From Luteolibacter flavescens (GTDB lineage: Bacteria > Verrucomicrobiota > Verrucomicrobiia > Verrucomicrobiales > Akkermansiaceae): 64,000 bases of DNA. The position numbers and the translations under genes are program-made. Positions 32,536 to 53,457 of this stretch are shown here, one piece after another; position 1 is the stretch's first letter, and each line of letters begins with the position of its first letter. The notes below the pieces were generated by a model. The model was not told where the DNA came from. It worked only from the letters and a program-made list of their open reading frames with translations, and did no database searches. The stretch spans positions 1-64,000 of the forward strand of contig NZ_JAPDDS010000006.1 of the NCBI RefSeq assembly GCF_025950085.1. Reading direction: 5' to 3'.

Positions 32536-34275
32536 TTACTCGCGGATGCGGTAGAAGTGCTTTCCGGCGGTGGCGTTCTGGTCGGTGTAGGTGGTCTCGC
32601 CGGCCATGCCTTGCACTTGCCCGAGGTCCTCCCATTCATCGAGATCTTGCGAGCGCTCCACCCGGTAGAGCTGGCCTGCCGCGGAGGCCCAGGTGAGCGT
32701 GAAGGTGGAGGCCATCGCATCGCGACTGAAGGACACGATCCGCGGTGCGGGATACTCCAGCGTGATGCCGAGCGGCGCGTGCATCTCTAGCCCGTAAACG
32801 ACGCCACCAACCGGATTGAGATCGATGCCGTTCGCGGTGAGGTCTTCCAGCGTGCCGTTGAAGTTCCAATACGCCACCAGCCCCGGCTCGTTGCCCTGCA
32901 GGCCGTTCGCCAGGCTGCCGCGGATCTCCTCCACGGTGCGCGCGGCATTCCAGATGCGGATCTCGTCGAGGTAGCCGTGGTAGTAGCCCGCGCCAAAGGC
33001 GTCGCTGAGCTTCCGCCCGATCATGTGGTTCGCATCGGTCACGCTGACAGGCGCGGCGGGTGTCGCCGTGCCGATCGCGGTGCCATTCAGATACGTCACC
33101 ACCTTCGTGCCATCGTAGGTCACGGCGAAGTGATGCCAGCCGTCGGAATTCGGCCCGCCCTCGTCGAGCGCGAAGGGCAGTCCGGTCTCGATGACGCTGT
33201 CGTCTCCCCAGAAGTAGTGCCGTACCACCGAGGACCCCGCGAGGCGGAAGCCGTTCGCCTGGCGCGTCGCCTCATTTCCCCAGAAGACGAATGTGCTGCC
33301 ACCGAGCGGCTCCGCATTGATCGTCTCCGGATTCGCCCACAGCTCCACGGTGAAGGGCTCGTTGCCCGACGGGATGACCCCGGCCGCCGGGGCGAAGGTG
33401 AGATGGCTTTTTCCATCCAGCCGGATCGAGCCATTGCCGGTGAAGTTCGGGTGGCTCGCGTCATCGAGCGGATCGGTCGAGGCCGCCACTTCGTCGCCAT
33501 CGGAGTAGAGATCGCCATCCGTGTCCACCATCAGCGGATTGGTCTGGTGGACATTCACCTCCGCGCCATCGCTGAGGCCGTCGCCGTCGGTGTCCGGATT
33601 CTGGCTGTCGGTGCCGAGCAGGCTTTCCTGTTCATCGCTGAGGCCGTCGCCATCGGAGTCGGCACCCGGTTGGAAGACGGACAGCTCGTCGAAGGGCGCG
33701 AACTGGCTGTTGGTGCCATTCCCGCCGAAACGCACCCAGATCTCCGTGCCATCCGGCAGACCTGTGAGATCCACCGTGCCGCTATGGTAGCCCACGCTGC
33801 CGATGCCCGCGGGGATGACCGAGAAGGTGCTGCCGAGCTGCACGATGCCGGGCGCCGAGCGGATGTCCACGCCATCCCCCGGGAAGAAGGTCTCGTCGGC
33901 GGTGAAGAATTCCAGGTCCGCGCCGGTCGAGGCATTCCCGTCCGTGAAGATGCCCTGATAAAAGCGGAAGCCGAGCTCCGGCGCGCGCGACGCATCGTAG
34001 GTGCCGATGGACTGGTAGATCCATCCGGTGCCGCGCAGCGCGAGATGCCGGCTCGGCGAGTAGCCGTTGCCGCTGTCCGCCTGGATCGCGTTGAAGGGAT
34101 TCACCCACTCGGTGTAGCTGGCACCGCCGGTGCTCGATTCATACCACGCCGTCACGTCCTGGTTCTGCCCGGTCTGGCCATCCTCGAAGCTCCCGCCGAT
34201 GACCTGCGGGGCGGCGAATGCGGGGAGACTTGCAGTGAGCGATATGACGAACGAGAGGACTTGGGGTTTTCTCAT
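32536..34275 (-). CDS. Secreted TSP3/LamG-domain protein
   Basis: 579 residues. The signal peptide ends ASLPAFAA. An N-terminal domain (about 23-200) is clearly homologous to the PEP-CTERM protein at 34498 (shared GxFxDGxTGQ, SRHLALRG-x-G, YQSIGTY, VYQG-like and AFAPxD blocks). Next come four thrombospondin type 3 calcium loops (DSDGDGLSDEQE, DTDGDGLSDGAE and so on, about 205-275), then a LamG/concanavalin-like carbohydrate-binding domain (about 285-500, GWHHFAVTYDGTKVVTYLNG). A beta module ending in KHFYRIRE closes the protein. No PEP-CTERM tail. Divergent from its paralogue across a 222-bp region with paired operator-like repeats. Confidence 0.85.
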   Translation of the reverse strand: MRKPQVLSFVISLTASLPAFAAPQVIGGSFEDGQTGQNQDVTAWYESSTGGASYTEWVNPFNAIQADSGNGYSPSRHLALRGTGWIYQSIGTYDASRAPELGFRFYQGIFTDGNASTGADLEFFTADETFFPGDGVDIRSAPGIVQLGSTFSVIPAGIGSVGYHSGTVDLTGLPDGTEIWVRFGGNGTNSQFAPFDELSVFQPGADSDGDGLSDEQESLLGTDSQNPDTDGDGLSDGAEVNVHQTNPLMVDTDGDLYSDGDEVAASTDPLDDASHPNFTGNGSIRLDGKSHLTFAPAAGVIPSGNEPFTVELWANPETINAEPLGGSTFVFWGNEATRQANGFRLAGSSVVRHYFWGDDSVIETGLPFALDEGGPNSDGWHHFAVTYDGTKVVTYLNGTAIGTATPAAPVSVTDANHMIGRKLSDAFGAGYYHGYLDEIRIWNAARTVEEIRGSLANGLQGNEPGLVAYWNFNGTLEDLTANGIDLNPVGGVVYGLEMHAPLGITLEYPAPRIVSFSRDAMASTFTLTWASAAGQLYRVERSQDLDEWEDLGQVQGMAGETTYTDQNATAGKHFYRIRE

Positions 34276-34326
34276 GATGGATCTGGTTTCATCATGACGA
34301 TTTCATCCGCGGCCCGCGGGCGACCA

Positions 34327-34361
34327 CCCGATTTCAGGTCGCAGAATCCCGATTTCCGATC
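34327..34361 (-). promoter_or_regulatory. Operator-like direct repeat pair, 21-bp spacing, facing the LamG gene
   Basis: CCCGATTTCAGGTC at 34327-34340 and CCCGATTTCCGATC at 34348-34361, start to start exactly 21 bp. Read on the minus strand these are GACCTGAAATCGGG and GATCGGAAATCGGG, matching the second pair's GACCGAAAAYGCCG in the leading GAYC...AAA part. The near end lies 52 bp before the start codon of the gene at 32536-34275, a position suited to activation next to a -35 region. Confidence 0.6.
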
Positions 34362-34375
34362 ACGTCCGGGAGGCT

Positions 34376-34410
34376 GACCGAAAACGCCGCCTCATCGACC
34401 GAAAATGCCG
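34376..34410 (+). promoter_or_regulatory. Operator-like direct repeat pair, 21-bp spacing, facing the PEP-CTERM gene
   Basis: GACCGAAAACGCCG at 34376-34389 and GACCGAAAATGCCG at 34397-34410: 13 of 14 bases identical, start to start exactly 21 bp, that is two helical turns. AraC-family regulators typically bind two direct half-sites on one DNA face with this spacing. The pair lies 88 bp before the start codon of the gene at 34498. Confidence 0.65.
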
Positions 34411-34497
34411 TGGCACCCCCGCGGGTGGAAGGGGCACAACCAACGGCGGACGCTGGCAAAAGCCCGGCCGCCGACAAAACCCACCACCGCCAAACCC

Positions 34498-35172
34498 ATG
34501 AAAACCTCCCTCCTTCTCATCGCTGCCGCCATGGCCTCGCTGCCCGCCGCCCGGGCCGCGCTCACCGTCACCGCGGGTGACTTCGATGACGGCCTGACCG
34601 GCCAGCAGTTGAATGTGGCCGGCTGGTTCGACAGCTCCGTCGGCGGCTTCGTCGAGTGGAACAATGCGGCGGAGTCCATCCAGAGCGATCCCGCGAATGG
34701 CTACGTACAGAGCCGCCATCTCGCGATGCGCGGCGATGGCTATGTCTATCAATCGCTCGGCACCTATCAAAGCTCCGCCGGCACCGCCGCGCAGTGGCAG
34801 GTCTATCAGGGTGTCTTCGCGGACAACAATGCCTCGGCCGGCTTCACGATTTCCTTCTACGCCGGAGCCTTCCCGGGGGCTTCCGAGGGCGTGGACATCG
34901 CCGGTGCGGGCCTCGCCATGATCGGCTCCGCATCCAGCCTGAGCCCGCTGGGAAATCCCACATCGCTCGCATCCGCGGGCTACCGCAGCGGCTCGCTGGA
35001 TCTCTCGGCGCTCGCCGAGGGCACCGAGGTCTGGGTGGCCATCCGCGGCACCGGTGGCGGTGGTGCCTTCGCGCCGCTGGACAATTTCTCGGTGACGCAG
35101 ATCCCGGAGCCATCCGTCGCATTGCTCGGGCTGTTGGGTGTGGCCGGATTGCTCGTGCGGAAGCGTCGCTGA
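34498..35172 (+). CDS. PEP-CTERM surface protein, paralogue of the divergent LamG protein
   Basis: 224 residues. The signal peptide MKTSLLLIAAAMASLPAARA is followed by a beta-rich domain (about 22-195), GDFDDGLTGQQLNVAGWFDS to RGTGGGGAFAPLDNFSV, that aligns with residues about 23-200 of the protein at 32536. The PEP-CTERM signal IPEPSVALLGLLGVAGLLVR plus KRR is at the end. The domain could bind a polysaccharide; this is inference. It starts the rightward gene set PEP-CTERM, FecR-like, AraC, GH, GH with a 102-bp gap to the next gene. Confidence 0.85.
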   Translation: MKTSLLLIAAAMASLPAARAALTVTAGDFDDGLTGQQLNVAGWFDSSVGGFVEWNNAAESIQSDPANGYVQSRHLAMRGDGYVYQSLGTYQSSAGTAAQWQVYQGVFADNNASAGFTISFYAGAFPGASEGVDIAGAGLAMIGSASSLSPLGNPTSLASAGYRSGSLDLSALAEGTEVWVAIRGTGGGGAFAPLDNFSVTQIPEPSVALLGLLGVAGLLVRKRR

Positions 35173-35274
35173 GGCGTCCGCCGCATTCCTGATGGATTGT
35201 CACGCCGCAAGCCACCTGCCACCGTCGAGGACACGGAAAACCCTCACCCTCATTTTCACCCCGACCACGAGACC

Positions 35275-36771
35275 ATGAATCTGGAAGACGCGCTGCGGAA
35301 GATCGACGAGGGCAGACTGAATGAAGAGGCCGCCTCGGGACTTCGCGACTGGGTGCTGGATGAGCCGGACGCGCTCGCCCGCCTCGCCGCCGCGCCCGCC
35401 CTGCTCACCGGTCTGCCCGCGGGGGGCTCGCCACGCGAGGCCCAGCCCCGGCCATTCCTCTCGCGGGGAAGGCTGGGTGCGCTCGGTGTGGTGCTCGTCG
35501 CGGGGCTGGGCGGTGTGCTCACCTGGCAGGCGCTGCGCCCCGGTGCGGCCGCGCCACCGGCATCCGTCGCGGCATTCGTCACGGTCTATGAATCCCGCGC
35601 CGAGGGTGGCTTCAAGGTCGGGCAAATGGTCCCGCGCGGTCGCTACGACCTGCGGCCCGAGGACGAGATCGCCATGGTTTTCAGCTCCGGTGCCCGCGTG
35701 GAAATCAAGGGCCCCGGTGCCTTCGAGATCCTCGACGAGCGGAAGATGTTCATGCACGAGGGCCTGCTGAAGGCGCGCGTCGATGGCCGCCTCGGTCCCT
35801 TCCAGGTGGAGACGCCGGAGGGCCGCGTGATCGATCTCGGCACGGAGTTCACCGTGGCCCGCCCGCGCAATGGCTCGACCGAGGTTTACGTGAACGAGGG
35901 CTCCGTGCGCGTCGAGGCAGGCGGGAAGGATCGCCTGCTTTTCGAGAATGAGGCCGCCACCGTCGCGTCCGGTGAGATGGCCGCGGAGGACTTCCTGAAG
36001 CATCGCTTCGACACGCCGCTCGACCTTCACGAGATCGCCAGTGCGAATGCCCGCGCCTCGGCGGAGCCCTCGACCGCGCCGCCATCGTGGATGGACACGT
36101 GGGATCTCGCGACGGCCAAGCCGGGCGACAGCACGCCCGCGGAGTCCGGTGCCTTCAGGCTGCGCGGCGGCATTGTCACCGATGGCCTCACCTATCAATC
36201 CGGCGGCTACACGCTGCGCACCACGCCGCACGCGATCATGACCGGATCGACGGTCGGTGACTTCGAGTGCCTCATCCAGATGCGGGACCGCCGCGACACC
36301 GGCACGGAGAGCAGCTACGTCAGCTTCCTCATGCGGCTGCCCGATCCCGACCATGGCATCGAGACCGCCTATGCCGGACTGTCGTTTCTAACAGAAAGCC
36401 GCTGGGAGCATTTCTTCGTCGGCGATGGATGGTTCAAGTCCGGGCTCTGCATCCACGAGGGGACCACCGTGCCCGGGAAGTCCCGCGAAATGGAGACGCC
36501 GCTCGGCATCCCGCTCGGAAAGGAGACGGTGCTCGTCGTCCTGCGCATCGACCGCCTGAAAAAGGTGACCGACGTCTGGATCGATCCTCCGCTCGGCCTC
36601 GCGGAACCGCCCGCGAATGCCGATGCGCGTTGGCAGGATGTGCCGAAGTTCGACCTGCTGGGACTGCGCTCCGGGCACTACGTCCATGAGGGCGGCTACG
36701 TCTGCATCTTCGATGAATTCCGCATGGGCTCGGACTGGCGCACGGTCCTGCCGCTCGAGCCCGCGAAGTGA
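35275..36771 (+). CDS. FecR-domain membrane protein with concanavalin-like C-terminus
   Basis: 498 residues from ATG 35275. A short helical cytoplasmic N-terminus (about 1-60, EDALRKIDEGRLNEEAASGL) resembles the anti-sigma end of FecR proteins. A transmembrane helix lies at about 67-87. The FecR domain (about 110-240) has RYDLRPEDEIAMVFSSGARV, FQVETPEGRVIDLGTEF and STEVYVNEGSVRVEAG. The C-terminal 220 residues form a LamG/concanavalin-like beta sandwich (GDFECLIQMRDRRDTG, ending FDEFRMGSDWR). Known FecR proteins transduce a periplasmic signal to an ECF sigma factor, but none is adjacent here. The next gene, 16 bp on, is an AraC regulator. Confidence 0.85.
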   Translation: MNLEDALRKIDEGRLNEEAASGLRDWVLDEPDALARLAAAPALLTGLPAGGSPREAQPRPFLSRGRLGALGVVLVAGLGGVLTWQALRPGAAAPPASVAAFVTVYESRAEGGFKVGQMVPRGRYDLRPEDEIAMVFSSGARVEIKGPGAFEILDERKMFMHEGLLKARVDGRLGPFQVETPEGRVIDLGTEFTVARPRNGSTEVYVNEGSVRVEAGGKDRLLFENEAATVASGEMAAEDFLKHRFDTPLDLHEIASANARASAEPSTAPPSWMDTWDLATAKPGDSTPAESGAFRLRGGIVTDGLTYQSGGYTLRTTPHAIMTGSTVGDFECLIQMRDRRDTGTESSYVSFLMRLPDPDHGIETAYAGLSFLTESRWEHFFVGDGWFKSGLCIHEGTTVPGKSREMETPLGIPLGKETVLVVLRIDRLKKVTDVWIDPPLGLAEPPANADARWQDVPKFDLLGLRSGHYVHEGGYVCIFDEFRMGSDWRTVLPLEPAK

Positions 36772-36787
36772 TGCCCGCCTTCCTTTC

Positions 36788-37870
36788 ATGAAGCGGATCA
36801 CCGTCATCCTGTCCGACGCGGACGAGCGCACCATCCTGCGGATGAAGGGCGTCGGCGACTTCTTCCTCGGGGCCGCCGGATACCAGGTGGACTATCGCAT
36901 GGCAGACAGCTCGCCCCCGCTCGCAGGCGAGACGGACGGCATGATCTTCCTCGGTCGCCCGTGTGGTGCGCCACCGCCGGGAGTCCCTGTCGTCGGCGTG
37001 GGGGAGGAATTCCACGCGCGTGAGGTGGCGGTGTGCCGTATCCGCGAGGACGCGGGCGCCGCGGGCATGGCGGCGGGTGATCTGTTGGCACGACAAGGCG
37101 TCGCCCGCGCGGTGATGATTTCCTCCGGCAGGGCAGGGGACCTCGCGATGTGGAAAAGCTTCCAACGGGCCATCGCACGATGGGACCTGCCGTGCCATCA
37201 CCATGAACTCTCCGATCCCGCGCGCGGTCTGCCCGGGCAGGTGCGGGACCTTCTCATGTCAGGCCGCTGCGGCGTGCTGCTGACCTCTCCGCTGCTCGCC
37301 CTGCCGCTGCACGAGGTGAGGCTCGCGGCGAAAGGATCGCTGTGGATGACCGGCAGCGATGCCCCGGGCATGGCCGCCGCGCTGGAGCTGACCTCCGGCA
37401 TCGAGTCCTCGCGCCGCATGGGCTGGCTGGCCGCTGCATGCCTGGTGAAGGCGATGCGGGGCGATGCCGTGCCGCCGCTGCTGGAGGTGCCGCCGCACGG
37501 CATCGCCCACCGCCGCAGCACCTATCCCTTCGCCGGGTCCGGATGCGCGGAGGTGGAGCGCGCGCTCGCCTTCATCCGGGATGCCGCGGAGCGCGACATC
37601 GGCGTGGACGACGTCGCGCGCGCGTCCGGCGTCTCGCGCTCCGTGCTCCAGCGCCGCGTGAAGGAGACGCTGCATGTCTCGGTGCTGCACCTCATCCAGT
37701 GGCACCGCATCGAGCGGGTGAAAACCTGCCTCTCCGACCGCAGCCTCGGCATGGAACAGATCTCGGAACTCACGGGCTTCTCCTCCTCCGCGCACATGAC
37801 GGAGGTCTTCAAGAAGTGGACCGGCAATACACCCACCGAATTCAGAAACCAGCTCAAGGCCCGCCCATGA
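36788..37870 (+). CDS. AraC/XylR-type transcriptional regulator
   Basis: 360 residues from ATG 36788. The N-terminal 240 residues resemble a periplasmic-binding/LacI-like sugar-sensing domain (DGMIFLGRPCGAPPPGVPVV, then SGRCGVLLTSPLLALPLHEV, WMTGSDAPG). The linker VPPHGIAHRRSTYPF is typical of the XylR branch. The AraC DNA-binding domain (about 255-355) has two helix-turn-helix units: IGVDDVARASGVSRSVLQRR and MEQISELTGFSSSAHMTEVF, ending TGNTPTEFR. It overlaps the next gene by ATGA (37867-37870), implying translational coupling. The likely target is the 21-bp-spaced direct repeats at 34327-34410. The ligand is unknown, probably a sugar. Confidence 0.88.
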   Translation: MKRITVILSDADERTILRMKGVGDFFLGAAGYQVDYRMADSSPPLAGETDGMIFLGRPCGAPPPGVPVVGVGEEFHAREVAVCRIREDAGAAGMAAGDLLARQGVARAVMISSGRAGDLAMWKSFQRAIARWDLPCHHHELSDPARGLPGQVRDLLMSGRCGVLLTSPLLALPLHEVRLAAKGSLWMTGSDAPGMAAALELTSGIESSRRMGWLAAACLVKAMRGDAVPPLLEVPPHGIAHRRSTYPFAGSGCAEVERALAFIRDAAERDIGVDDVARASGVSRSVLQRRVKETLHVSVLHLIQWHRIERVKTCLSDRSLGMEQISELTGFSSSAHMTEVFKKWTGNTPTEFRNQLKARP

Positions 37871-39465
37871 CTTTCCTCCGCGCCACCCTTCGCACCCGCT
37901 TTCTCGCCGCGGCATCGTGCCTGCTTTCCGCCGGTGCTTCCCTCACGTCTGCCGCCGGGCCGGTGCCTGCCGTCGAGCGCCTGCGACACCATGTCGAGCA
38001 GTTCAATGGGCGGGACACGGACCTCTATCCGCAGTCGATCCCGAATGCGCAGGCCTACGATTTCCTGAAGGAAAACATCCCGCTCTTCGACGCGCCGGAC
38101 GAGGACTTCGTGCGGACCTACTACTTCCGCTGGTGGGTCTATCGGAAGCACGTGAAGGCCACGCCGGAGGGGCGCGTGATCACCGAGTTCCTCCCGCCCG
38201 TGCCCTGGGCCGGGAAGCACAATACGATCTCCTGCGCGCTGGGCCACCACCTCATGGAGGGCCGCTGGCTGCGCGACCGCGGCATCATGCGCGAGAATCT
38301 GCAGTTCTGGCTCGGCAAGACGGATGGCGGGCACTTGCGGCGCTACAGCACCTGGCTCGGCACCGGGCTGTGGGAGCTGCACGAGGTGCATCCCGACGAG
38401 GCTTTCCTGAAGGACTTGCTGCCGTCGCTGGTCGCGAATTACGAGGGCTGGGAGGCGACGCATCTCTGCGCCGACGGCCTCTTCCAGCAGACTGACAATG
38501 CGGACGGCATGGAGGTGTCCATCGGCGGCTCGGGCCGACGCCCGACGATCAACAGCTACCTCTACGGGGATGCGCGCGTGATCGCGAAGATCGCACGCCT
38601 CGCGCGGAATTCCTCGCTCGCCGGGAAGTACGACCGGAAGGCAGACGACCTCCGCAAGCGCGTGCTGGCCACGATGTGGGATGACGATGCGGGCTTCTTC
38701 CGCGTGCTGCCGGGCAGCGAGGGGGAGAAGCGCGCGGACGTCTCCGAGCTGCTGGGCTACACGCCGTGGCTCACCGGGCTGGCGGATACCGGCGAGCGCC
38801 ACTCGCGCGCGTGGCGGCTGCTCACGGACTCGAAGGGCTTCCTCGCTCCCTACGGCCTCACCACCGCGGAGCAGTCGCACCCGCAGTTCGCCATCAGCGG
38901 CACCGGCCACGAGTGCCAGTGGAATGGCCCGAGCTGGCCCTACCTCACCTCCGCCACGCTGAAGTCGCTCGCCAATGTCCTCCACGCAGGCGGGAAGCAA
39001 CCGCTCACCCGCGGCGACTACTTCAAGCTGCTGGCCAACTACACCCGCTCGCAAAGGCTGACAGCGGCAGACGGCACCGTGCTTCCCTGGATCGATGAGA
39101 ACCAGGATCCGTACAGCGGCGAATGGCTCGCCCGCAAGCTGCTCATCGAGCGCCACTCGCCGATCCGCGAGCGTGGGAAGGATTACAACCACTCGTCGTA
39201 TTGCGATCTCATCCTCTCTGGCCTCGTCGGCATCCGGCCCGCCGTGGGGAACAAGCTGGAGATCGACCCGCTACTGCCGCCCGGACGCTGGCGCTACTTC
39301 AGCGTGGAGCGCGTGCGCTATCATGACCGCGAGGTGTCCGTGGTGTGGGATGAGGACGGCCTGCGCTACGGACGCGGGAAGGGCCTGCGCCTCATCGTGG
39401 ATGGCAAGGTCATCGCCTCTCGCCCCGACCTTGGAAAGCTCTCCGCCGTCCTGCCTGCCCGATGA
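37867..39465 (+). CDS. Secreted (alpha/alpha)6-barrel glycoside hydrolase
   Basis: 532 residues. Start ATG 37867 overlaps the AraC stop by four bases. The signal peptide ends near SLTSAAG. The catalytic domain resembles the MGH1-like/GH63-clan glucosidase fold: RWWVYRKHVK, VPWAGKHNTISCALGHHLMEG, MEVSIGGSGRRPTINSYLY, GYTPWLTGL, CQWNGPSWPYLTS and KDYNHSSYCDLILSGLVGI appear in order. The acidic residues in DNADGMEVSIGG and WIDENQDP are candidates for catalysis. A C-terminal beta module (about 455-532) follows. It is a paralogue of the next gene, with which it shares another ATGA overlap. Substrate unknown. Confidence 0.85.
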   Translation: MTFLRATLRTRFLAAASCLLSAGASLTSAAGPVPAVERLRHHVEQFNGRDTDLYPQSIPNAQAYDFLKENIPLFDAPDEDFVRTYYFRWWVYRKHVKATPEGRVITEFLPPVPWAGKHNTISCALGHHLMEGRWLRDRGIMRENLQFWLGKTDGGHLRRYSTWLGTGLWELHEVHPDEAFLKDLLPSLVANYEGWEATHLCADGLFQQTDNADGMEVSIGGSGRRPTINSYLYGDARVIAKIARLARNSSLAGKYDRKADDLRKRVLATMWDDDAGFFRVLPGSEGEKRADVSELLGYTPWLTGLADTGERHSRAWRLLTDSKGFLAPYGLTTAEQSHPQFAISGTGHECQWNGPSWPYLTSATLKSLANVLHAGGKQPLTRGDYFKLLANYTRSQRLTAADGTVLPWIDENQDPYSGEWLARKLLIERHSPIRERGKDYNHSSYCDLILSGLVGIRPAVGNKLEIDPLLPPGRWRYFSVERVRYHDREVSVVWDEDGLRYGRGKGLRLIVDGKVIASRPDLGKLSAVLPAR

Positions 39466-42095
39466 ATGCCTTCTCCCTCCGCGCCGTCCTGTTAGGCTCT
39501 CTTTTCGCCGCCTCCGCATCGGGCGCGCCGCTGATCCTCGATCCCGCACAGGTCGATGCCCACCTCGATGTCTTCCGCGAGGAGGACCGGTGGTATTTCA
39601 ATGTCGCGACGGACGCCGCGGTCTCGCAGGTGAACCACGGCACCTACGGCGGCCAGTGGGTGAAGAATGCCGCTGCGGCGGACTACCTGCGCACCAGGAT
39701 CCCGCTGCTGGACGTGCCCGATGCCGCGCTGGAGAAGACCTGGTACTACCGCTGGTGGGCCTTCCGGAAGCACATCAAGAACATCGGCACGCCGGTCGCT
39801 CCGGACTTCATCATCACCGAGTACATCGACCCGGTGCCATGGGCGGACTCCACGAATGCGATCGTGGCTCCGGTGGGCCACCAGCTCTACGAGGCGCGCT
39901 GGCTGGATGACCCGCAGGTCAGCCGCGACTACATCCGCTACTGGATGACCCACGCCGCGGCGAATCCCCGGCGCTACAGCGCGTGGCTGGCGGACGCCAC
40001 GCTGGCCCGCCACCTCGTCATGCCGGATGACGCGCTGGTCACCGAGATGGTCTCGTCTCCAACGAACCGCCTCACCCTTGACTCGAATTGGCAGGGCTGG
40101 GTGCTGAAGGACTCGCGGCCCGGCGGGGAGACCCAGCAGGCGAGCTACGATGCCGCCGACCGGCTCTTTTGGCAGAATGACGACCGCGACGCGATGGAGG
40201 TGAGCTATGGCGGCAGCGGCAAGCGCCCCTCGATCAACAGCTACCTCTACGGCGACGCGCGCGCCACGGCGGAGATGTATCGCATCGCCGCCCGCCATCA
40301 GCCGGCGCAGGCCGCGACGCACCTCGCCTCCGCCACCCGCTACGACGGCCTCGCCGAGGATCTCCGCGAGGCCGTGCAGACGCGGCTGTGGGATGAGAGT
40401 GACGAGTTCTTCAAGACCGGCTACGGCTCCGGCGGGAATGACGGCCCGTCCTCCTCCGCGGACTCCGGCACGCCGCGCCACACCTGGTGGGCACCGGATC
40501 ACCTCGGCACCAGCGAGTGGGTGCAGTATGACTTCGCCAGTCCCGTGACCGTGGATCGCTGCGAGGTCTATTTCTACGATGACCGGCCCCATGGCGGCAC
40601 CCGCGTGCCCGGCTCATGGGAGCTCCAGTACTGGAATGGTACGGCGTGGCAACCGTGCGTCCGCAAGCCGGGGCAGACCTATGCGGTGGAGCGCGATGTC
40701 TACAATGGCGTCGCCATCGAGCCCGTGACCACCTCGCGGCTACGGCTGGCCGCGTCGTTGCAGCCGGGCTTTTCCGCGGGCACGCTGGAGTGGCGCGTCT
40801 TCTCGACCGGCGGTGCGAATGTCTCCCTCGCCGCCACGCCGTCCGCCTCCTACACGGACATCTACGGCGGCACCGTGGCCGCGCTCAATGACGAGGGCCG
40901 CTACCCGGTGCAGGATCGCCGCGAGCAAATCGGATTCACCCCGTGGTATTTCGGCCTGCCGGAGAAGGACGCCGCCGTGGACTACGACCGTGCGTGGTCG
41001 CACCTCTGGAGATTCACCACGAGCCACGGCCTCACCAGCGGGGCCACGGATGAGGCGGGCTACCAGACCGGGCAGCTCGGAAGCTGCTGCCAGTGGAATG
41101 GCCCGGTCTGGCCCTTCGCCACCACCATCACGCTGAAGGCGATGGCGCGGCTGCTCCACGAGCACCAGCAGCCCTACGTGACGCGTGGCAATTACCTCGA
41201 TCAACTGAAGACCTACTCGGACAGCCACCGCTTCACCCTCACGCGCGGCTCTGAGACGCGCACGCTGTCTTGGATCGATGAGTCGATGACCTCCGCCGGA
41301 CCGGGTGGCGGGCTGTGGACGCACATCGGCGGCAATGGCGTGCAGCCCGGCAATGCCCCGCGCGGATTTTCCTACAATCACTCGGGCTTCGCCGACCTCG
41401 TGATCACCGGCCTCATCGGTCTGAAGCCGCGTGCCGATGACATCGTGGAAGTCGCCCCGCTGGTGCCGCTGGATGCAGGCGGCGGCTACGTGTGGGACCA
41501 CTTCTGCCTCGACCAGGTCGCCTACCGCGGCCACCAGCTCACGATCCTCTACGACAAGACCGGCCTGCACTATGGCGCGGGCCAGGGGCTCCACGTCTTC
41601 GCCGATGGCATCCGCATCGCATCGTCACCGTCCGCCGGTGCCGTGCAGGGCGTGCTGCCAGATGCCATCCAGCGATGGGCCGCGCCTTTCTTCCCCGGCC
41701 ATCCGGACCAGCAGCAACTCGCCGCGGACGCCGACCCCGATGGCGATGGCTCGGACAACCTGCTCGAGTATCTCTCCGCCACCGATCCCTCGTCGTCATC
41801 CTCCATCCCGTCCACGCGCGTGTGGATCGCCCCGGTGGACGGCCAGCCGGTTGATTCCGCGAAGCATCTCCACGTCGAAGCGATCGTCCGCGAGACGCCC
41901 CAGAACATCACCCTGCAGCCGCAGCTCTCCGCCAGCCTCGCGGATTGGGAAACCGGGAGCTTGTCCGTCGTCGAACTCCCCGCCATTCCCCGCGGCGATG
42001 GCACCGTCCTCCGCCGCTTCCGCAGCGCCGACCCCGTATCGTCCGTGGATGCCGCCTTCTTCAGATTTCGCGCCACCTTGCCTGTCGCGGAATGA
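39462..42095 (+). CDS. Secreted glycoside hydrolase with inserted F5/8 type C-like domain
   Basis: 877 residues, start ATG 39462 overlapping the previous stop. The signal peptide ends ASASGAP. The same barrel as the previous protein is split: first part about 20-325 (RWWAFRKHIKN, VPWADSTNAIVAPVGHQLYE, MEVSYGGSGKRPSINSYLY), second part about 480-740 (IGFTPWYFGL, CQWNGPVWPFATT, YNHSGFADLVITGLIG). Between them, about 328-450, lies a discoidin-like carbohydrate-binding domain (TWWAPDHLGTSEWVQYDF, DRCEVYFYDDRPHGGTRVPG, LEWRVFS). A dockerin/TSP3-like calcium loop (DADPDGDGSDNLLEYL, about 762) and a C-terminal beta module follow. It is the last gene of the operon. Confidence 0.85.
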   Translation: MNAFSLRAVLLGSLFAASASGAPLILDPAQVDAHLDVFREEDRWYFNVATDAAVSQVNHGTYGGQWVKNAAAADYLRTRIPLLDVPDAALEKTWYYRWWAFRKHIKNIGTPVAPDFIITEYIDPVPWADSTNAIVAPVGHQLYEARWLDDPQVSRDYIRYWMTHAAANPRRYSAWLADATLARHLVMPDDALVTEMVSSPTNRLTLDSNWQGWVLKDSRPGGETQQASYDAADRLFWQNDDRDAMEVSYGGSGKRPSINSYLYGDARATAEMYRIAARHQPAQAATHLASATRYDGLAEDLREAVQTRLWDESDEFFKTGYGSGGNDGPSSSADSGTPRHTWWAPDHLGTSEWVQYDFASPVTVDRCEVYFYDDRPHGGTRVPGSWELQYWNGTAWQPCVRKPGQTYAVERDVYNGVAIEPVTTSRLRLAASLQPGFSAGTLEWRVFSTGGANVSLAATPSASYTDIYGGTVAALNDEGRYPVQDRREQIGFTPWYFGLPEKDAAVDYDRAWSHLWRFTTSHGLTSGATDEAGYQTGQLGSCCQWNGPVWPFATTITLKAMARLLHEHQQPYVTRGNYLDQLKTYSDSHRFTLTRGSETRTLSWIDESMTSAGPGGGLWTHIGGNGVQPGNAPRGFSYNHSGFADLVITGLIGLKPRADDIVEVAPLVPLDAGGGYVWDHFCLDQVAYRGHQLTILYDKTGLHYGAGQGLHVFADGIRIASSPSAGAVQGVLPDAIQRWAAPFFPGHPDQQQLAADADPDGDGSDNLLEYLSATDPSSSSSIPSTRVWIAPVDGQPVDSAKHLHVEAIVRETPQNITLQPQLSASLADWETGSLSVVELPAIPRGDGTVLRRFRSADPVSSVDAAFFRFRATLPVAE

Positions 42096-42496
42096 TCGGG
42101 CGGCAAGGAATCTGCAATGTCCGGGCTTGCGATCCGCACCCTCTCGTCATCCGGTGGCCGACTCGATGCACGCTGCCGTTTTGTTAGACTATCCCGCTTC
42201 GAGCTATCGCCGCCTCACTGGATTCACCGAAGAGATCGAATCGTGAATAACGCGAAATACCGCGAAATTTTCAGATCGGATTCTCTCCCTTGCCTTTGGA
42301 TTTCGCGCATCTTCGCGTCCTTTCGCGGTGAAATAAAAGGCCCGAAACCTTCAAGCTGCCGTTACCCGCGATATCGAGTAAGCGGCCACGACCTCGCGTG
42401 AAAACGCTCCATCACCATCTGGCCTGCAACACCCGGTGATCAGCCTTCACACGATGCCCGTCCAGACGTGGCACCTGACCTGCGATAGCGGGCTGC
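42096..42496. repeat. Intergenic region with diverged family G foldback (42244-42411)
   Basis: No gene is seen. The left arm aataacgcgaaataccgcgaaat (about 42244-42266) and right arm (about 42298-42333, ttcgcgtcctttcgcggtgaa) are diverged versions of the arms at 2544-2749. The tail ending ccacgacctcgcgtg (to about 42400) matches the tail of that copy. Confidence 0.65.
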
Positions 42497-43108
42497 ATGA
42501 CCACGAAACTCCTGATCAAGTGGGCCGGCATTGCCGCAGTGATCGGTGCACTCCAAGCGCCACTCTTCGCACGCGATGACGGCAAGGTCGGCAAGATGGA
42601 GCCGGCCGACTTCAGGAAGACCACCGAGAAAGCAGGAGAGAAGATCGCAGCCCTGCTCACCGTCGACGCCCCATTGTCCGCCGTCGACCGGGCCCTGATA
42701 GGGGAGCTGGCACTTGTAGGCCTCGCCCAATTGCAAGCGAGCGAACTGGCCGCGACGAAAGCGCGGGCAACCGAGGTGAAGCTGATCGCGGAAGAGGAAG
42801 CGAAGGAGCAGAATGCCATCGCCGCCAAGCTCAAGGAAGTCGCCACCAGAAAATCCCTCACCTTGCCCACCGAACTCGACGACCAGGGAAAGGAGCTCTT
42901 GGAGAAACTGGAAGCCATCGGCGACGGCTTCGACCGGCTCTACCTGCAGGAAGTCGGAGTCCGCGGCCACGAGGAACTCAAGAAGACCATGACCAAGGTC
43001 CAGCTCCAAGCGACCGACCCCACGCTCAAATCTCTCGCCGCAATGATCCTGCCCCTCATCGAGATCCACATCACCGTGGCCCAGGATGAAATGGCGACCC
43101 TGGGATAA
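42497..43108 (+). CDS. DUF4142 family exported protein
   Basis: 203 residues. The signal peptide ends at QAPLFARDD. The mature protein is helical and matches the DUF4142 (ferritin-like four-helix) layout: ALVGLAQLQASELAATKARA-like second helix, AEEEAKEQNAIAAKLKEVA, then FDRLYLQEVGVRGHEELKK and a last helix PLIEIHITVAQDEMATL. Family members lie in the periplasm and their role is unknown. Two typical His positions (usually near DH and near the end) are reduced: one is E/Q-rich, while the HEEL and EIHI histidines remain. Single-gene unit. Confidence 0.8.
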   Translation: MTTKLLIKWAGIAAVIGALQAPLFARDDGKVGKMEPADFRKTTEKAGEKIAALLTVDAPLSAVDRALIGELALVGLAQLQASELAATKARATEVKLIAEEEAKEQNAIAAKLKEVATRKSLTLPTELDDQGKELLEKLEAIGDGFDRLYLQEVGVRGHEELKKTMTKVQLQATDPTLKSLAAMILPLIEIHITVAQDEMATLG

Positions 43109-49818: not shown

Positions 49819-52800
49819 ATGCCACGATACCTCGTCTCCTTCCTCGCCACGACGCTCGCCGGATCGGCGGTCGTGGATGCGGCACCCTCGGTCACGAAGC
49901 TGAGGTGCGAGGACTTGGCAAATCCGACGGGCGTGGAGGTGGCGCAGCCGCGGCTGAGCTGGTGGATGACGTCGGACGTCCGCGGCGACACGCAGTCGGC
50001 GTATCAGGTGGTGGTGGATGGCGTGTGGGACTCGGGGAAGGTGATGTCCTCGCAATCGATCCACATCCCGTACGCGGGGCCGGCGCTGGAGCCGGGTCGG
50101 CGCTACGAATGGCGCACGCGGATCTGGGATGCGGAGGGCGCGGCCTCGGCGTGGAGCGAGACGGCCACCTTTGCCACCGGCATCCCGTCGTGGTCCGGGG
50201 AGTGGATCGGGCAGGAGAGCGCTGCGTGGCATGCGGGGATCGCAAGGGCTCAGTGGATCTGGTTCCCCGAGGGCAGCCCGGCGAGCAGCGCGCCGGTGGG
50301 CACGCGGCACTTCCGCCGCAGCTTCACGCTGGTGGAGGCCCCTACCCGGGCGAGCTTCACGGTCGCTGCGGACAATGGCTTCGAGGTATCCGTGAACGGG
50401 ACGAAGGCGGGCGAGGGCAGCGATCTCACTCACCCGGGCCGCTTCGACATCGCGCCGCTGCTGCGGGCGGGCGAGAATGTGATCACCATCACCGCGTCGA
50501 ATATCGGCACCGGTGCGAATCCCGCGGGCCTCATCGCGGGCTTGAAGATGGACTTCGCGAATGCGGCACCGATGGAGATCCACACGGACGCGCGGTGGCA
50601 GGCGAGCACGGACGGCAAGACGTGGAGCGCGGCGATGCCGCTGGGCGGCTTTGGCATGGCGCCGTGGGGCACGCTCCACGGGCGGAATCCCGCGCGCTAC
50701 CTGCGGAAGGATTTCACCAGCGATTCTAACAAGGAAATCGCGCGTGCCACGGCGTATGTGTGCGGGCTCGGTTTCTTCGATCTCTTCCTCAATGGCGAGG
50801 AGGTGTCCGACCATGTGATGGACCCGGCGCTGTCCGACTACTCGAAGACGGCTTACTACGTCACCTTTGACGTGACGGACCGCATCCGGCCGGATGCGAA
50901 TGCGGTGGGCGTGGTGCTGGGGAACGGGCGCTTCCACGCGCCGCGGCTGAGCGAGCCGGCACCCACGCAGCACTTCGGCTTCCCGAAGCTGCTGCTGCAG
51001 ATCGACATCGAATACACCGATGGCACGAGGGCGACGGTGGTGAAGAGCGACCCGACGTGGAAGATGACCGACGACGGCCCCATCACCGCGAACAACGAGT
51101 ACGACGGCGAGGAATACGACGCGCGGAAGGAGATGCCGGGCTGGGCGGCGGCGGGCTACGATGACTCGGCGTGGGCGGCGGCCACCGCCGTGACGGCACC
51201 GGGCCCGCAGGTCGCGCCGCAGATGATCGAGCCGATGCGCGTGGTCCGCGTGATCGAGCCGGTGGCGATTACGAATCCCACGGAGGGGAAGTACATCGTG
51301 GACATGGGCGAGAATTTCTACGGGACCATCCGCCTGAAGGCGAGCGCGCCGGTGGGCACCACGGTGAGCATGACCAGCTCGTATAGCCTGAATGCGGATG
51401 GCACGCTGAAGATCGCGGACAACCGCAGCGCGCTGTGCACGGACCGCTACACCTTCAAGGGCGAGGGCGTGGAGGTGTGGACGCCGCGCTTCAAGGGGCA
51501 GGGCTTCCGGCGCTTCGAGGTGAGCGGCCTGCCGGAGGCACCCGTGCTCGCGAATTTCGAGGGGCTGGTGATCAGCACGGATGTGGAGGACGCCGGGGCA
51601 TTCGAGTGCTCGGACGAGCTGCTGAATGACATCCACCGGTCGGTGAAGCGCGGCCTGCGGATGTTCCTGCGGAGCGCGCCGATGGACCCGGACCGCGATG
51701 AACGGCAGTCGTGGATGGGCGATCCGGCGAAGGACGCGGAGAGCGGTGCCTACAATTTCAACGTGGCGGCCTTTTACTCGAAGTGGATGGACGACGTGGC
51801 GCGCTCGCAGCGCGGGGACGGCTCCATTCCCGACGTCTCGATGTATTGGAACTGGGGCGATGGTGTGGAGTGGGCGAGCGTCTTCACCATCCTGCCGGAG
51901 TGGATCGGGGACTTCTACGGGAACCCTCGTATTTCAGCGAAGCACTACCAGGCGATGCGGAAGTGGGTGCTGGCGATGCGCCGCCACGAGGAGAAGGACG
52001 GCACGCTGCGCGGCGCGAGCTACGGCGACTGGTGCGACGTCTCCACGATCACCTCGGGCATCAACAACGGCAATACTTCCTCCGCGCTGATCTCGTCCGC
52101 CTACCAGTATCACAACTACCGCATCATGCAGCGGCTGGCGACGACGCTGGGCCGCACGGCGGATGCCGCGACCTTCTTCGAGCTGGCGAACAACCTGAAG
52201 GTGGCCTTCAACGCGCGCTTCTACGATGAGACGACGCATGTCTATGAGTCGGACACGCAGTGCGCCTACGTGCTGGCGCTGAAATTCGGCCTGGTGCCGG
52301 ACGGGGACAGGCCCGCGGTGCTGGCGCGGCTGGTGGATGACATCATGGTGAAGCACCACGGGCATCTCACCGTGGGCCTCATCGGCATGCAGTGGCTGAT
52401 GCAGGTGCTGGGCGAGGAGGGCCGCTCGGATGTGGCGTGGACCATCGCGACGCGCACCGCGCGGCCGAGCTGGGGCTACATGCTTTCCAAGGGAGCGACG
52501 ACGATCTGGGAACGCTGGGACGGCGACACGCGTGATGCCTCGATGAACAGCGAGGCGCTGCTCATCCTCGCGGGGAACCTCGACGCGTGGTTCTACCAGT
52601 ATGTGGCCGGGATTCGCCCGGGCTCCACGGCATTCAAGCGCATCGTGATCCAGCCGGAGATCGTGGGCGATCTCACCTCGGCGAAGGCACACTTCGACTC
52701 TCCCTATGGCCGCATCGCGAGCGAGTGGCAGGTGGTCTCGCCGACGGAGGTGACCTTCACGTGCACGGTCCCTGCGAATGCGAGCGCGGTGATCCACGTG

Positions 52801-53457
52801 CCGGTGTCGAGGGTGGGGAATGCCACGATCACCGAGGGCGGCGTGCCGGTGTGGAGCGGCGGGGCCTACCGTCCGGGCGTGAAGGGCCTGGGCTACGAGG
52901 GGGCGGATGAGAAGGCGGTGCACCTGACTGCGGGCGCGGGCACGTATGAATTCCGCATCACGGGCACCTCGCTGGTGAAGCCAGGTACGATCATTCTAGT
53001 AGATAATGACAGCCCGGGTGCCCGCCTGCGTGGGAGCTGGACGCGTGGCACGAGCACGGAGGTGGACCAGCGCCACGGGGCGAGCTTCTCCTTCGCGGTG
53101 GCGGGCACGGGTGACTCGACGGCGGAATTCCGCCCCTACATCCCGGCGGCGGGCAACTACAAGGTGCAGGCGCGCTGGACCTCGCACTGGAACCGCGCGA
53201 CGGATGCACCCTTCACCATCCGTCACGCGGGCGGGGAGACGACCGTGAGGCGGAACCAGGAGGAGAACGGCGGGAAGTGGGTGGACCTGGGCACCTTCGC
53301 ATTCGACTTCGGCGCGGAGGGCAGGGTGACGCTGACGAACGATGCGGACGAGCACGTGATCGCGGATGCGGTGCGCTTCGTCCCCGTGGATCCCGCGGAT
53401 ACCTCGCTGATCTCCGGCGATGGCTTTGACGGGAAGGACGTCCTTCCCGACGCCTGA
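49819..53457 (+). CDS. GH78 alpha-L-rhamnosidase, multidomain, exported
   Basis: 1212 residues, larger than the usual 900-1000. It releases terminal alpha-L-rhamnose from polysaccharides or glycosides. The signal peptide ends AVVDA. Then come an N-terminal fibronectin-like domain (PRLSWWMTSDVRG), concanavalin-like carbohydrate domains (about 120-330 and 330-560), and the (alpha/alpha)6 barrel (about 590-930). The catalytic signature APMDPDRDERQSWMGD (about 617-632) has Asp/Glu candidates for the general acid, and TTIWERWDGD (about 896) gives the second acid. A beta-sandwich follows. An extra C-terminal golvesin/Xly-like binding domain (about 1055-1200, GSWTRGTSTEVDQRHGASF) explains the length. 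Confidence 0.93.
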   Translation: MPRYLVSFLATTLAGSAVVDAAPSVTKLRCEDLANPTGVEVAQPRLSWWMTSDVRGDTQSAYQVVVDGVWDSGKVMSSQSIHIPYAGPALEPGRRYEWRTRIWDAEGAASAWSETATFATGIPSWSGEWIGQESAAWHAGIARAQWIWFPEGSPASSAPVGTRHFRRSFTLVEAPTRASFTVAADNGFEVSVNGTKAGEGSDLTHPGRFDIAPLLRAGENVITITASNIGTGANPAGLIAGLKMDFANAAPMEIHTDARWQASTDGKTWSAAMPLGGFGMAPWGTLHGRNPARYLRKDFTSDSNKEIARATAYVCGLGFFDLFLNGEEVSDHVMDPALSDYSKTAYYVTFDVTDRIRPDANAVGVVLGNGRFHAPRLSEPAPTQHFGFPKLLLQIDIEYTDGTRATVVKSDPTWKMTDDGPITANNEYDGEEYDARKEMPGWAAAGYDDSAWAAATAVTAPGPQVAPQMIEPMRVVRVIEPVAITNPTEGKYIVDMGENFYGTIRLKASAPVGTTVSMTSSYSLNADGTLKIADNRSALCTDRYTFKGEGVEVWTPRFKGQGFRRFEVSGLPEAPVLANFEGLVISTDVEDAGAFECSDELLNDIHRSVKRGLRMFLRSAPMDPDRDERQSWMGDPAKDAESGAYNFNVAAFYSKWMDDVARSQRGDGSIPDVSMYWNWGDGVEWASVFTILPEWIGDFYGNPRISAKHYQAMRKWVLAMRRHEEKDGTLRGASYGDWCDVSTITSGINNGNTSSALISSAYQYHNYRIMQRLATTLGRTADAATFFELANNLKVAFNARFYDETTHVYESDTQCAYVLALKFGLVPDGDRPAVLARLVDDIMVKHHGHLTVGLIGMQWLMQVLGEEGRSDVAWTIATRTARPSWGYMLSKGATTIWERWDGDTRDASMNSEALLILAGNLDAWFYQYVAGIRPGSTAFKRIVIQPEIVGDLTSAKAHFDSPYGRIASEWQVVSPTEVTFTCTVPANASAVIHVPVSRVGNATITEGGVPVWSGGAYRPGVKGLGYEGADEKAVHLTAGAGTYEFRITGTSLVKPGTIILVDNDSPGARLRGSWTRGTSTEVDQRHGASFSFAVAGTGDSTAEFRPYIPAAGNYKVQARWTSHWNRATDAPFTIRHAGGETTVRRNQEENGGKWVDLGTFAFDFGAEGRVTLTNDADEHVIADAVRFVPVDPADTSLISGDGFDGKDVLPDA

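Follow-up and report, generated by a model that had tools for sequence, protein, structure and literature searches.

Which protein would a FecR-type membrane protein signal to when the gene usually found beside it, that of an ECF (extracytoplasmic function) sigma factor, is missing? This question is raised by a cluster of five genes of Luteolibacter flavescens, a verrucomicrobial species of the family Akkermansiaceae. The cluster is encoded in a stretch of 64,000 nucleotides (positions 1 to 64,000 of contig NZ_JAPDDS010000006.1, assembly GCF_025950085.1), which is referred to here as the window. It comprises the genes of a PEP-CTERM-like protein (P0005), a FecR-lectin protein (P0001), a XylR/AraC-type regulator (P0002) and two glycoside hydrolases (GHs; P0003 and P0004). 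The labels P0001 to P0005 denote proteins of this locus, L numbers surveyed loci and G numbers surveyed genomes; L068 is the locus of Luteolibacter marinus. With a probability of about one in two, the whole is explained as a single glycan-response operon under the control of the AraC protein, which carries an orphan FecR-lectin protein whose likeliest partner, if it still signals, would be an ECF sigma factor encoded elsewhere.

Matches to P0001 are found in 99 of the 195 genomes of the family, and such FecR-like proteins are nearly always paired with an ECF sigma factor in the loci read. An orphan FecR protein under selection, situated beside an AraC protein and sugar enzymes, is a small and testable case of either a sigma factor acting in trans or some other partner. 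Should it be true that the FecR segment has found another partner, two classes of regulators that are normally separate would be linked.

Absence of the linked ECF sigma factor gene

The FecR gene has been compared with those of 81 other loci, which are mostly the best matches of P0001 and not a random sample, giving 82 FecR genes in all. An ECF profile match is situated upstream on the same strand in 78 of them, and in each of these 78 the FecR frame overlaps the ECF frame or begins no more than 43 bp from it. The four genes without an ECF match are the present one, its orthologue in L068, L079, where the contig ends 91 bases away, and the orphan L191 of genome G131. A separate pass over 55 loci, partly of the same genes, revealed an ECF gene in 51, the rest being this gene, its orthologue and two genes at contig ends. 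In the L. flavescens genome itself, searches with Pfam FecR and P0001 identify nine FecR places, eight of them with an adjoining ECF gene and that of P0001 without.

No ECF gene is detected by profile search in positions 25001-46000, and no sigma remnant is found in the intergenic gaps in six frames, all scores being below 0 bits. The sole match to sigma region 2 on the contig (C6:134764) is about 98 kb away. The lack of an ECF gene next to this FecR gene, already remarked upon in the initial annotation, is a genuine exception shared with L068, and constitutes a real but modest variation among FecR loci.

In a FecR tree of 78 proteins (L079, L197, L198 and L200 of the 82 being left out), P0001 and its L068 counterpart are sister to nine ECF-linked proteins with support of 94/90. 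Since 78 of the 82 genes have an ECF gene upstream and the pair is sister to ECF-linked proteins, loss of the ECF gene would be the simplest history. The ECF-FecR pairs L069-L077, among them one of the same genome (C1:658796, L074), resemble P0001 in having the FecR and the same C-terminal domain, with 25-29% identity over the alignment. They differ in their surroundings, as the ECF gene is 15-67 bp upstream or overlapping there, whereas here a PEP-CTERM-like gene is upstream and an AraC gene downstream.

The second orphan FecR-like gene (L191:6010-7575, minus strand, in G131) has no ECF match in 2.3 kb upstream and adjoins a divergent large frame that appears glycosidase-like by eye; the FecR-like frame of L191 matches no Pfam family.

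Conservation of the arrangement in a second species

The five genes run in one direction, the FecR and AraC genes are spaced by 16 bp (36772-36787), and the AraC/P0003 and P0003/P0004 junctions are ATGA overlaps of 4 bp. All coordinates of the initial annotation are confirmed in this respect. The L068 locus has the same gene order, the same 16-bp gap and both ATGA overlaps. The five proteins share 75-82% identity with their counterparts, and the synonymous divergence of the fecR genes is about 1 per site. As the order, the gap and both overlaps have been kept, the arrangement is more than chance. Close copies of P0001 are encoded in two of the 195 family genomes, namely this one and L. marinus, the next best protein by E-value being 29% identical; the count is again two among the 18 genomes of the genus, and a wider scan of contigs for the locus gave one match, the L. 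marinus one. Upstream of the orthologous cluster (L068:873-1499), a short unit is repeated in the translation, possibly a CRISPR (clustered regularly interspaced short palindromic repeats) array.

Domain organisation of the FecR-lectin protein

P0001 matches the FecR family of Pfam with 26.5 bits (cut-off 24). Its structural model, with a mean pLDDT (predicted local distance difference test) of 67, has three short helices (residues 3-11, 17-29 and 33-44) and, further along the chain, a beta domain that is followed by a beta sandwich. The putative membrane segment corresponds to a hydropathy peak of 1.82 around residues 69-87, where the model is of low confidence. The modelled residues 119-260 match PupR (6ovk_R) with a Z-score of 16.0 over 136 residues and a root mean square deviation of 2.7, and the same beta domain matches two entries of one anti-sigma protein of Parabacteroides with Z-scores of 15.5 and 15.4. 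For residues 269-497 of the model, the matches are to calreticulin, GH131 and L-type lectins (Z 12-14.6). The list of lectin-fold matches given by Foldseek is long and includes some toxin binding domains, and indicates a common fold only. As modelled, the periplasmic part of P0001 is made up of a true FecR domain and a domain of concanavalin/L-type-lectin fold, a likeness that is no proof of sugar binding. The periplasmic FecR/concanavalin protein initially postulated is borne out by these fold matches.

Like the FecR, PupR and FpvR regulators, P0001 combines a periplasmic FecR domain of the PupR fold with a putative single membrane segment and a short helical stretch predicted to be cytosolic. 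Unlike them, it is without a linked ECF sigma factor and carries an L-type-lectin-like domain after the FecR domain, and none of the five clustered genes encodes a TonB receptor.

The conservation between P0001 and its L068 counterpart varies along the chain. Identity amounts to 77% over residues 1-43, with a ratio of non-synonymous to synonymous substitution rates (dN/dS) of 0.19, to 25% over the linker of residues 44-63 and to 52% over the membrane segment. It is highest in the FecR domain (86%, dN/dS 0.10), and reaches 80% in the C-terminal domain (dN/dS 0.13). Judged from these substitution rates, residues 1-43 and the FecR domain are under purifying selection.

Retention of an anti-sigma-like segment and candidate partners

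A gapless motif was trained on 75 ECF-linked proteins, with P0001, L068, L191, L079, L197, L198 and L200 left out. It scores 10.2 in P0001 and 16.3 in the L068 protein, values that are reached by 3/5000 and 0/5000 shuffles. When relatives are left out, 6 of the 75 ECF-linked proteins score equal to or lower than P0001 and 16 equal to or lower than the L068 protein. Near the motif end Tyr or Phe is present in 49/75, and Leu in both orphans and in 12/75. As measured by this motif, an anti-sigma-like segment is retained in P0001, though weak. Its retention speaks against a clean exchange of the sigma factor for the AraC protein and allows a partner in trans.

The proposal of the initial annotation that the AraC protein serves instead of an ECF sigma factor is not borne out, as this motif lies within the spread of the ECF-linked proteins and both genomes encode ECF sigma factors of the same group that have no adjoining FecR gene. 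Two such genes scoring well on the profile of FecR-linked ECFs are encoded in the L. flavescens genome (C4:315897 and C9:151478) and one in L. marinus. The gene at L242 (G019), also of this kind, is doubtful owing to a weak FecR-profile match of 36.7 bits in the neighbouring frame. Tree matching was tried for a specific partner in trans and rejected, as the six FecR-less ECFs form one clade with no firm place beside the ECFs of the sister clade. A precedent for one such protein being able to serve more than one sigma factor is FpvR, an inhibitor of both FpvI and PvdS (excerpt of PMC4256889). ECFs without a neighbouring anti-sigma factor may be under the control of orphan anti-sigma factors, as stated in an excerpt of PMC7406223.

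The AraC-type regulator and its putative operator

The relation of P0002 to XylR, part of the initial annotation, stands by sequence match: residues 197-354 match E. coli XylR (4fe4, E-value 3e-17), and the HTH_18 helix-turn-helix (HTH) domain is assigned with 67.8 bits (cut-off 33.6). The other part, the sensor domain, is weakly seen in P0002 itself. Peripla_BP_3 scores 13 bits there (cut-off 26.5), and the model is confident only in the DNA-binding part, with pLDDT mostly below 50 in the sensor. The same family is above its cut-off in the relatives L091, L104 and L148, and P0002 is aligned by BLAST with L091 (65-357) and L104 (60-355). E. coli XylR combines a LacI-type sensor with an AraC HTH; the sensor region of P0002 is shorter than that and weakly recognised. 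Its relatives likewise appear to have a longer and less degenerate sensor region, their frames being of 386-437 residues against 360 for the whole of P0002. Compared with L068, the HTH part is the best conserved (93% identity, dN/dS 0.07) and the sensor part shares 68% (0.22).

A pair of direct repeats in the intergenic region upstream of the cluster (Table 1) is the putative operator of the AraC protein. The two copies agree in 12 of 13 positions here and in 11 of 13 at the aligned place in L068. Random sequences are as good at the 21-bp spacing in 2 and 7 of 2000 cases, and with any spacing of 14-59 in 51 of 2000. At one position G is present in both copies here and C in both L068 copies. 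Allowing up to 3 mismatches, the repeat has a single match in the 5.9-Mb genome and none in the backward control. For MtlR, another AraC-type regulator, a 15-bp block at -72 to -58 and a second one resembling it at -50 to -36 are used (excerpt of PMC4514859), which amounts to a period of 22 bp against 21 bp here.

The GH142-like hydrolases

The two coupled hydrolase genes recognised at the outset are supported by their ATGA overlap, by matches of both products to the MGH1-like GH family of Pfam (242 and 114 bits) and by their similarity to BT_1020. P0003 residues 39-518 match residues 626-1094 of BT_1020 (5mqr) with an E-value of 2e-111, and P0004 matches 5mqr in two stretches (5.5e-70). The C-terminal domain of BT_1020, to which P0003 is thus homologous, we take to be GH142; P0003 and P0004 differ from BT_1020 in being separate, smaller enzymes without its N-terminal part. 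An F5/8-type domain of P0004 (F5_F8_type_C_2, 27.3 bits, just below the cut-off of 27.8) sits between two parts that match relatives of P0003 by BLAST. Both N termini look like signal peptides by eye, and the two hydrolases are probably exported.

The entry 5mqr is named a beta-L-arabinobiosidase in one PDB listing and a sialidase in another. GH142 beta-L-arabinofuranosidases serve the degradation of RG-II (rhamnogalacturonan II) in B. thetaiotaomicron (excerpt of PMC10850190). By homology, the substrate of P0003 and P0004 may be a beta-L-arabinofuranoside-type glycan. About 7.7 kb downstream, at 49819-53457 on the plus strand, the window encodes an alpha-L-rhamnosidase with Rha78A-type domains and a Golvesin C-terminal domain. 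Together with the GH142-like enzymes it hints at a pectin/RG-II theme.

Relatives of P0003 at E-values of 1e-20 or less occur in 51 of the 195 family genomes. None of 13 close relatives has an AraC, FecR or ECF profile match in the 1.5 kb or less of flanking sequence covered, which a contig end shortens in some cases, and for this reason the present combination looks special to this pair of loci. A XylR-type AraC gene adjoins a more distant GH gene in L104, L106 and L108, with no FecR match.

Occurrence of AraC genes next to FecR genes

The pairing to which the initial annotation drew attention, a XylR-type AraC gene directly after a FecR gene, is found among the 82 FecR genes solely in this orthologous pair. 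Other direct FecR-to-AraC junctions on the same strand occur in L146 and L186, with the ECF gene still present in both. In L146 (8250-8630, plus strand, G024) the ECF-FecR pair is followed by an overlapping HTH-only AraC frame of 126 residues and then a PEP-CTERM gene. In L186 (1006-1815, minus strand, G049) it is followed by an overlapping PAS-AraC frame, and a similar PAS-like frame is divergent, upstream of the ECF gene. The AraC gene precedes the ECF gene in L204 and L205, and lies 1.6 kb downstream of the FecR gene in L078 and L148, that of L148 being XylR-type.

The three direct junctions compare with 0.17-0.33 expected (P 0.0007-0.005), on the assumption of one gene per kb and with the frequency of AraC genes derived from four genomes. 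When this locus, picked for the feature, is left out, two cases remain (P 0.013-0.045). AraC frames near FecR genes number 11 against 3.8 expected (P 0.002), and seven after orthologous pairs are collapsed (P 0.09). The excess of FecR-AraC neighbourhoods is a hint and no more. A literature search, with most subscription journals outside its coverage, found no report joining FecR with ECFs of Verrucomicrobia, FecR with both AraC and polysaccharide utilization, or FecR with both concanavalin and sigma factors; for FecR and Luteolibacter the same coverage gave chromium mats only, and papers found for FecR, sigma factors and this phylum were off topic by their titles.

Possible explanations of the locus

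In the explanation preferred here, the five genes would be co-transcribed as a single operon responding to a glycan. A small sugar, the presumed inducer, would be sensed in the cytosol by the XylR-type AraC protein, which would switch the operon, perhaps also the divergent LamG gene, via the direct repeats. The two GH142-like enzymes, if exported, would cut the predicted beta-L-arabinofuranoside-type glycan. P0001 would be a FecR-type membrane sensor with its lectin-fold domain outside and its anti-sigma-like segment inside. It may descend from an ECF-FecR pair, have lost the linked ECF gene and been kept among these genes. Should it be signalling still, its most probable partner would be an ECF sigma factor encoded elsewhere, and AraC control and FecR signalling could form two layers around the same glycan.

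A number of points weigh against this explanation. The motif score of P0001 falls towards the bottom of the values seen in ECF-linked proteins. FecR-less ECFs are also present, one each, in three other species (G039, G064 and G019), and since species without an orphan FecR protein have them as well, such ECFs are candidates only; without a firm place of their clade in the tree, no specific partner is singled out. The sister placement of the orphan pair is just below the star threshold of the tool, with long branches. Only two orthologous loci were found in the 195 genomes, so that the footprint is a single comparison, and the repeat pattern was chosen after the sequence had been inspected. No sigma-70-type consensus site is found in 34200-42600.

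P0001 may instead signal no more and serve as a lectin anchored in the membrane, which would keep glycan close to the enzymes; its N terminus would then be a leftover. The poorly conserved linker and membrane segment, as against the FecR and C-terminal domains, would fit such a role, as would the missing ECF gene and the low motif score. A pure lectin would need neither the FecR domain, the best conserved part, nor residues 1-43, which are under constraint, and we regard this role as rather unlikely. That the FecR gene is an ordinary neighbour of a GH142-AraC catabolic set without common function finds some support in the GH-AraC pairs of L104, L106 and L108 and in the 13 close P0003 relatives, all without an AraC, FecR or ECF match nearby. 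The gap and two overlaps kept exactly despite about one synonymous change per site make it highly improbable.

One sensing module of the FecR and AraC proteins, as the initial annotation had it, is possible, but the anti-sigma-like segment kept in P0001 speaks against it. In the specific form in which the N terminus of P0001 makes contact with the AraC protein, passes on a periplasmic glycan signal and replaces the ECF partner, the idea draws on the immediate junction, exactly conserved in L068, and on the further junctions of L146 and L186. The latter keep their ECF genes, so that no replacement has taken place there, and their AraC proteins are without a XylR-type sensor; the statistical excess shrinks on omission of this locus and on collapsing orthologues. 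As P0002 has a XylR-like sensor region of its own and P0001 has kept its motif, such a contact is very unlikely. We likewise give little credence to a retargeting of the anti-sigma segment to the AraC protein encoded 16 bp downstream, which would make P0001 a transmembrane glycan receptor directly controlling a one-component regulator.

Preferring the operon with an orphan FecR-lectin protein, we list its features in Table 1.

Table 1. Features of the cluster and its surroundings (window coordinates), with the FecR-less ECF genes of the genus (coordinates within surveyed loci)
Feature	Position	Strand	Basis
Divergent LamG/TSP3 protein	32536-34275	-	LamG 75 bits
Divergent intergenic region, presumed promoter region	34276-34497	.	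conserved blocks in alignment with L068
Candidate AraC operator, a pair of 13-bp direct repeats with a period of 21 bp	34376-34409	+	conserved in L068
PEP-CTERM-like secreted protein P0005, 225 aa	34498-35172	+	weak PEP-CTERM profile match; 75% identical to L068 orthologue
FecR-lectin membrane protein P0001, 498 aa	35275-36771	+	Pfam FecR; structural model
N-terminal cytosolic anti-sigma-like three-helix segment of P0001, residues 1-43	35275-35403	+	motif tests; model
XylR/AraC-type regulator P0002, 360 aa	36788-37870	+	HTH_18; E. coli XylR match
GH142-like hydrolase P0003, 532 aa	37867-39465	+	BT_1020 similarity
Second GH142-like hydrolase P0004, 877 aa, inserted F5/8-type domain	39462-42095	+	BT_1020 similarity
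Genus-level ECF clade without clear FecR neighbour	L222:5484-6434, L221:5410-6021, L239:3135-3779, L240:3124-3702, L241:3448-4041, L242:3836-4504		FecR-linked group

The PEP-CTERM-like gene and the divergent neighbour

Linkage to PEP-CTERM genes as a general feature of FecR genes was considered and rejected as weak (6 of 82 FecR genes within 200 bp), as was an RNA structure between the PEP-CTERM-like gene and fecR (z -0.09). The tail of P0005 scores 18.9 bits with the PEP-CTERM family of Pfam (cut-off 20.7) and 13.5 bits with TIGR02595, also under its cut-off. Its C-terminal end, IPEPSVALLGLLGVAGLLVRKRR, has been checked for the PEP motif, the hydrophobic stretch and the basic tail. The divergent LamG/TSP3 protein is a paralogue of P0005 in its N-terminal part (45% identity over 203 residues, E-value 2e-49), and its gene may share the promoter region with the five-gene cluster.

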